A stretch of 39,485 bases of DNA from Pseudomonadota bacterium (GTDB lineage: Bacteria; Pseudomonadota; Gammaproteobacteria; Acidiferrobacterales; Acidiferrobacteraceae): the NCBI GenBank assembly GCA_021777335.1, contig JAJYDT010000017.1:1-39485 (forward strand), written 5' to 3'. Positions within the stretch are counted from its first letter, which is position 1; each line of letters begins with the position of its first letter. The notes below the pieces were generated by a model that made no database searches, had not been told where the DNA came from, and saw only the letters and a list, made by a program, of their open reading frames with translations. Shown here in pieces: positions 38,546 through 39,485 of the stretch. Position numbers and translations under genes: made by a program.

Positions 38546-39238
38546 CTACTTCGCGCTGTCGCCGTCGTGTTCTTTCACCCAATCGTCATAGTCCTCGCGT
38601 TTCTCTTCAATAAAGTCCTCAATCACGTCGAACAGGTTCTCATCGACGATCTGAAGCTGCTTCATGACCCCGGTCATCTCCCAGATCGTGTACATCTCAA
38701 CCGACGTCTTGAGGGACACCTCCCATGCAGTATCCGTGGTCTGCAACGTCCGCACGGGTATGGCCTTGCGCAACGTCTTGAGGTCGCCCTCGACCTTCTG
38801 GATATTCGGACCCCAATCGGGGAAGTGGTCCGGCTGGATCATATCTGGCGACAACTGATTACCGGTCGTGATGAGCTTGAGCATCACGCGGCCGAACGGA
38901 CGCAACACGTCCTTCGCCGATTGCATTCCATGTTTGATTGATATCTCGCGCATGATGGCGATCAGGCCGCCCGGGGAATTCTTGAACGGGCAACGCGCGG
39001 CGCACGTCATGCATTGCGCACACGCCCAGATCTTTTCCTGCATGGCATCGTAGATCTGCTCGACGTTCTCAGTCCAGAGCAGTTGGACGATCTCACGCGG
39101 GCTGAAATCATAGAAATGGGCTGCCGGACACGTCGCTGTGCAGATGCCGCAGTTAAGGCAGCCATTTAACTCGTGGTCGTACCTGAAATCGCGACGGATG
39201 TCGTCGTAGATTTCCTGCATCTCAGCGTAGGTTGCCAT
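38546..39238 (-). CDS. hdrC1: sHdr complex subunit HdrC1
   Basis: A 230-residue iron-sulfur protein with two ferredoxin-type motifs: Cys27/30/33/37 (CLNCGICTATC) and Cys73/76/79/83 (CAQCMTCAARC). It passes electrons between HdrB1 and HdrA. The open frame goes 20 codons further up, through the promoter palindrome. The ATG at 39238 has AGGAG 7 nt upstream and begins MATYAEMQEIYDDIRRDF, so it is the real start. It is the first gene after the predicted operon promoter. The acidic C-terminus (IEEKREDYDDWVKEHDG) is as expected for the family. Confidence 0.93.
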   Translation of the reverse strand: MATYAEMQEIYDDIRRDFRYDHELNGCLNCGICTATCPAAHFYDFSPREIVQLLWTENVEQIYDAMQEKIWACAQCMTCAARCPFKNSPGGLIAIMREISIKHGMQSAKDVLRPFGRVMLKLITTGNQLSPDMIQPDHFPDWGPNIQKVEGDLKTLRKAIPVRTLQTTDTAWEVSLKTSVEMYTIWEMTGVMKQLQIVDENLFDVIEDFIEEKREDYDDWVKEHDGDSAK

Positions 39239-39268
39239 ATCATTGCTCCTGGCCCGGAAACACCCATC

Positions 39269-39298
39269 AGTATATCGCACATTACTAATGAATGTCAT
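39269..39298 (-). promoter_or_regulatory. Predicted sigma-70 promoter of the sHdr operon
   Basis: On the minus strand, ATGACA (39298-39293, 5 of 6 with TTGACA) and TATACT (39274-39269, 5 of 6 with TATAAT) are spaced by 18 nt. They lie 30-60 nt before the hdrC1 start codon. The -35 is overlapped by a palindrome, so repression or activation at this site is plausible. Confidence 0.6.
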
Positions 39299-39300
39299 TA
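39286..39300. promoter_or_regulatory. Palindromic candidate operator TAATGA-ATG-TCATTA
   Basis: A perfect 6-3-6 inverted repeat covers the -35 of the predicted hdrC1 promoter. Such AT-rich dyads suit small winged-helix repressors. ArsR-type regulators (sHdrR, SoxR) control sHdr/sox genes in other sulfur oxidizers, but none is encoded in this window, so the link is only inference. Confidence 0.45.
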
Positions 39301-39302
39301 AC

Positions 39303-39342
39303 TAAAGCCACTGGGTGCTGTCTTCTGTCCCCAGTGGCTTTA
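39303..39342. terminator. 13-bp hairpin between dsrE-like gene and hdrC1
   Basis: TAAAGCCACTGGG (39303-39315) pairs perfectly with 39330-39342 across a 14-nt loop. It lies 44 nt after the stop of the partial dsrE-like gene and just before the hdrC1 promoter. The minus-strand stem ends GGCTTTAGTT, a short U-poor tail. It may be a partial terminator or a 3'-end stabilizing structure that separates expression of the carrier genes from hdr. Confidence 0.6.
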
Positions 39343-39386
39343 CAAACCGAAGCGCGCTCGGCCTTCGCCCTCTTCGCAAGTTCTTG

Positions 39387-39485
39387 TCAGATAAACAGGC
39401 AGATATCAGACTCTCCGGCAAACTCAAAGAAGGTTGCGGCGCCACCGTATTCGATGCCGCCGATGAAGTCGTTGTGGCTGAAACC
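39387..39485 (-). CDS. DsrE-family sulfur carrier, C-terminal fragment (runs off window)
   Basis: Only the last 32 residues are in the window, too short for a stand-alone call, but the reading frame is open to the edge. It ends GFSHNDFIGGIEYGGAATFF followed by EFAGESDICLFI and a TGA. The EYGG-AT-FEFA...LFI ending is that of DsrE-type proteins encoded upstream of hdrC1 in sHdr loci (often tusA/rhd-dsrE3A). Such proteins hand sulfane sulfur toward the sHdr complex. The family call rests on this short tail plus position. Confidence 0.6.
   Translation of the reverse strand, partial: GFSHNDFIGGIEYGGAATFFEFAGESDICLFI

Follow-up and report, generated by a model that had tools for sequence, protein, structure and literature searches.

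The window, by which we mean the whole stretch of 39,485 nucleotides analysed here, is the entire contig C31 of a MAG (2.57 Mb, 164 contigs) that stands as the lone genus g1 of the Acidiferrobacteraceae and whose relatives include records of Acidiferrobacteraceae bacterium and Acidiferrobacter sp. The minus strand carries the genes in the order hdrC1-B1-A-hyp-C2-B2-lbpA (with lbpA-like GcvH proteins), i.e. as a standard sHdr cluster. Upstream of hdrC1 the contig stops within dsrE, and the gap from the dsrE stop codon to hdrC1 is 148 bp long. A sequence-only reading of this gap had described a hairpin, a 6-3-6 palindrome and a near-consensus promoter, and all three elements were recovered where it had placed them, on the strand of hdrC1 (Table 1).

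Table 1 Features of the dsrE-hdrC1 gap and its flanking genes
Feature	Position	Strand	Basis or description
dsrE 3' end	39387..39485	-	stop codon 39387-39389; last 32 codons; contig stops within gene
Hairpin	39303..39342	-	arms 39303-39315 and 39330-39342; 13-bp perfect GC-rich stem, 14-nt loop
TAATGA-N3-TCATTA dyad (proposed operator)	39286..39300	.	exact 6-3-6
-35 hexamer ATGACA	39293..39298	-	consensus scan and position-weight scan
-10 hexamer TATACT	39269..39274	-	consensus and position-weight scans; inside family-conserved block
Family-conserved block ATTAGTAATGTGCGATATACTGATG (relatives: TNAGTAANNNCTAATATTCYGAAG)	39265..39289	-	identity to family
Ribosome-binding site AGGAG of hdrC1	39246..39250	-	sequence
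hdrC1 (sHdrC1, 4Fe-4S protein, 230 aa)	38546..39238	-	first gene of hdr set; ATG at 39238

The 99 bp of dsrE in the window match the end of a full-length dsrE (169 aa) on contig C5 without a difference, and the match breaks off precisely at the dsrE stop codon. Within the same genome, dsrE and the 3' part of tusA are found in two contexts (39387-39485; C5:47442-48022, C87:1-127 and C112:1-127), which represent either a recent duplication or an assembly mixture. Contig C112, with an intact tusA upstream of dsrE, looks like the true neighbour of the window; on C87, tusA is just a fragment. Relatives (e.g. at locus L047) have a rhodanese gene upstream of tusA, and no intact one was seen in the host genome.

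The predicted promoter before hdrC1, ATGACA-18-TATACT, agrees with the consensus at 10 of 12 positions, and its near-consensus hexamers and 18-nt spacing fall within the range of sigma70-type promoters (16-18 nt). A simple consensus scan gave one match, against 0.7 such sites per kb expected. In a position-weighted scan, for which we used approximate E. coli sigma70 weights, the promoter of the hdrC1 gap was the best of 526 tiles (150 nt, both strands, whole window). As had been noted before, its -35 hexamer is located inside the palindrome.

We compared this gap in 21 related genomes, 16 of them other Acidiferrobacteraceae (13 of genus g2 and three of genus g3) and five from the sister family. 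In g2, the promoter has the form TAGAC[TCG] (or a variant)-17-TAnnnT, and its -10 ends 39-42 nt upstream of the hdrC1 start codon; it was the top site in 10 of the 13 genomes and within 0.1 of the top in an eleventh. The three g3 genomes possess the same TAGAC-type promoter 56-57 nt ahead of the start codon, together with a second site (TGGATC, TCGACC or TCGATC-17-TAATAT) 28-29 nt before it, and the sister family has TTGACY-17-TATAAG 37-38 nt before hdrC1. Alignment with g3 showed that the window promoter corresponds to the second, downstream site of that genus: the window no longer has the older upstream promoter of the relatives and carries a near-consensus pair at the downstream position. 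Most relatives have their dominant promoter about 18 nt further upstream than the window, with hexamers that are not exactly the same. The relatives thus have a promoter at the same place as far as the gap and the conserved block are concerned, but because the window promoter neighbours that of most relatives and is not equal to it, it is uncertain whether the starts are strictly homologous. Since almost every family member and the sister family have a promoter in this gap, the proposal that the hdr genes have their own start finds support in silico, and we conclude that the internal sigma70-type hdr promoter is probably real but ordinary. Good candidate promoters also exist in Sulfuriferula-like and some other lineages, in longer gaps. 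The sister-family gap before hdrC1 measures 244-305 bp (G026, G034 and G040, loci L021-L023) and contains long GC-rich hairpins after dsrE; at the -35 of these loci there is a small TGACY-N5-RGTCA dyad, both sides of which differ from genome to genome.

Apart from the ribosome-binding site, the only part of the gap that matches the family well is the block that holds the -10 of the window, with a mean identity to the family of up to 0.74 versus mostly 0.1-0.4 upstream. It could be argued that this block, ATTAGTAAT...(C)TAATAT, and not the dyad, is the regulatory site, i.e. a candidate regulator site across the Acidiferrobacteraceae that overlaps the hdr start region. Its standing as the sole strongly conserved part of the gap favours this, as do a perfect palindrome, TTAGTAATTACTAA, at the block in two relatives (G013 and G014) and, in the host genome, a perfect 11-3-11 palindrome upstream of tusA that contains a related half-site. 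However, the block includes -10 elements, so its conservation is explicable by promoter function alone. Furthermore, the window has lost its second half-site, matches to the block elsewhere in the family genomes are few, its palindromic form is no commoner than the reversed control (the genome-wide motif statistics being pattern searches with reversed-pattern controls), and the palindrome upstream of tusA is confined to the host genome. The block may therefore be an operator or simply promoter, and we regard a regulatory site there as unlikely. Still less credence is due to the wider proposal that ATTAGTAAT...TAATAT is a candidate operator for a sulfur-responsive regulator of an hdr-specific promoter across the Acidiferrobacterales, which would uncouple sHdr from TusA/DsrE, the proportion between the two halves being controlled by the covarying hairpin. 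The palindrome upstream of tusA (C112:743-763, locus L135) is a perfect AT palindrome, ATCAGTAATTT-AAT-AAATTACTGAT, about 480 bp from the gene. It had no match in 17 family genomes and was rejected as a shared operator, as it is unique to the host and its motif does not exceed the reversed control in 18 genomes.

The TAATGA-N3-TCATTA dyad itself had been proposed as an operator. A 6-bp dyad with a spacer of 0-10 occurs in 21% of resampled gaps and in 13% when the AT-rich 60 nt are considered, so that the dyad is at chance level (P about 0.13-0.21). The genome contains a single exact copy of it, which led us to reject it as a regulon operator, and it is missing from the gap of the 21 related genomes. 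The sequence-only reading had named lack of conservation in related genomes as evidence against its own claim, and since the dyad is missing at the same place in relatives, regulation through the palindrome fails on that count. We conclude that the palindrome at the -35, with its 6-3-6 layout, is probably a chance occurrence.

A model for such regulation does exist. In Hyphomicrobium denitrificans, the ArsR-type repressors sHdrR and SoxR bind repeat-bearing promoter regions of the shdr-sox locus, the bound fragments being those upstream of dsrE3C and of lipS1 and the soxT1A-shdrR and soxA-soxY gaps (PMC12423496, PMC10451225). The window resembles this locus in having sHdr genes and repeats in a promoter region, and the sulfur-responsive ArsR repressors of Hyphomicrobium are the pattern for a sulfane-sulfur-responsive repressor of the SoxR/sHdrR/SqrR type that would sit on the dyad and block the -35. 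The overlap of dyad and -35, the binding of ArsR-type repressors to inverted-repeat regions at the Hyphomicrobium sHdr genes (PMC12423496, PMC10451225) and the presence in the host of five ArsR proteins that exceed the Pfam cut-off, among them one with two cysteines 67 residues apart, are in line with this. Unlike the Hyphomicrobium locus, however, the cluster in the window has no repressor gene and its dyad is not conserved. Of the features looked for in an ArsR operator, neither a repeat beyond chance nor conservation in orthologous promoters or a regulon was found; the dyad is a chance-level, single-copy sequence that none of the 21 relatives has at this place. The BigR cut-off was reached by no host ArsR (best 65.9 of 155 bits), none is encoded in the cluster, and a motif match before one ArsR gene was not conserved in its orthologues. 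Such repression is therefore very improbable; no regulator can be named for the hdr promoter, and the dyad is unsupported as a binding site.

The hairpin is a different matter. It is unsurpassed in length among the perfect inverted repeats of the 39-kb window, with one other equal to it; the expected number of such hairpins under Markov resampling was 0.0, which puts it far beyond chance, and the 76-nt stretch that contains it folds at z = -5.2. The hairpin of g3 (UAAAGC..UCCC/GGGG..CUUUAG) has the same base as that of the window (UAAAG...CUUUAG) and a different apex. In the 13 g2 genomes, the stem in the gap varies in sequence but stays paired (in 73.7% of cells), although the hairpin is weak in three of them. 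The stem showed 22 double-sided changes versus 12.9 in shuffles and a covariation score of 0.451 versus 0.330 ± 0.037, a value that none of 500 shuffles reached and that was highest at slide 0; these figures are for g2, and the shuffles ignore relatedness. When arms from the same genome were considered, the observed pairing was reached by 1 of 20,000 arm permutations. The position of the stem differs as well: in g2 the TAGAC hexamer is in the loop, so that the stem surrounds the -35, whereas the window hairpin is upstream of the -35. Rfam covariance models gave no match in the window or in ten loci and there is no second copy in the genome, so we rejected the hairpin as an Rfam RNA or a repeated element.

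Whether the hairpin separates the hdr genes from the upstream carrier genes depends on how well it terminates. A functional intrinsic terminator, which would fully separate two transcription units, is suggested by the 13-bp GC-rich stem with CUUUAGUUAAU next to it and by the hairpins that relatives have at this place. But the stem is followed by no U-run, its tail is weak and its loop has 14 nt; the terminator score was about -7, below zero and just under a terminator threshold. A terminator scan, which allows loops of 3-8 nt only, found none, and the hairpins of relatives have no clear U-tract either. The weak tail led us to reject a strong terminator, and full separation of the two units is rather doubtful. 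In the absence of a proper U-tract, an intercistronic 3'-end or processing hairpin, possibly with partial termination, is likelier. The earlier claim that the hdr genes are separate from the carrier genes is borne out only in part: with such a hairpin, transcripts are likely to read through from tusA-dsrE, which probably leaves the hdr genes with two inputs.

Taken together, these data make it fairly probable that the gap is an ordinary intercistronic control segment of the tusA-dsrE-hdr cluster, consisting of an internal housekeeping promoter and a hairpin, with an accidental dyad. ATGACA-18-TATACT would start transcripts at about 39262, a position predicted from the hexamers, and would drive hdrC1-B1-A-hyp-C2-B2-lbpA behind a leader of about 24 nt; the hairpin just upstream would end or protect the tusA-dsrE part of transcripts coming from a promoter further upstream. 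Hairpin and internal start together would allow different expression levels for the carrier and enzyme genes. Here we infer promoter use, the role of the hairpin as a 3'-end or processing element, and read-through.

At the opposite extreme, the gap could be a spacer with nothing functional in it, the hdr genes being carried, as in Acidithiobacillus, on a joint transcript from a promoter further upstream. In A. ferrooxidans, the start of the hdr operon (rhd-tusA-dsrE-hdrC1B1A-hyp-C2B2) was mapped by 5'RACE upstream of rhd, at a RegA-bound promoter (PMC5506826). Gene order is the same in both organisms, with dsrE directly before hdrC1, but in A. ferrooxidans the start is before rhd, whereas in the window the predicted promoter is between dsrE and hdrC1. 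The Acidithiobacillus dsrE-hdrC1 gaps are only 58-75 bp long and no strong promoter was found in them; the gaps of the Acidiferrobacterales, in contrast, are longer (96-305 bp) and contain promoter-like sites and a conserved block. We therefore consider a mere spacer quite unlikely here. Because the A. ferrooxidans start lies upstream at rhd, an internal start would be a lineage feature, and the internal hdr promoter indeed appears to be a feature of the Acidiferrobacterales. We found no mapped promoter before hdrC1 in the literature.

If the internal start is real, the Acidiferrobacteraceae make the sHdr complex from its own promoter, unlike Acidithiobacillus, which would bear on models of acid-mine sulfur oxidation that regard the cluster as a single operon. 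As a mechanism, an internal promoter with a hairpin is textbook. In the puf operon of Rhodobacter, for example, a hairpin between cistrons and a secondary promoter lead to unequal expression within the operon. The predicted segment before hdrC1 is alike in layout, but the genes concerned are those of the sulfur carriers and of sHdr.

Elsewhere in the host genome, the ArsR protein with the two cysteines is encoded divergently from gpmI (L138:1774-2220, contig C49), and the distance between its cysteines compares with 66 residues in SoxR (Cys50/Cys116). It has clear orthologues in 15 of 17 other family genomes and is a candidate sulfane-sulfur sensor, although it scores under the BigR cut-off and no conserved site was seen in the promoter of its gene. 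The motif GTAATNANTAATAT is exact before two host ArsR genes; we rejected it as an autoregulation motif, since the orthologues of the gpmI-adjacent ArsR do not have it and its place is an extended -10 region in them. In addition, a sulfur gene island (L051 on contig C1, L050 on C23) encodes a DsrE-like protein, an ArsR-rhodanese fusion, a cysteine desulfurase, an ArsR and a sulfide:quinone reductase-like protein. A part of C1 recurs at the start of C23, though not identically.
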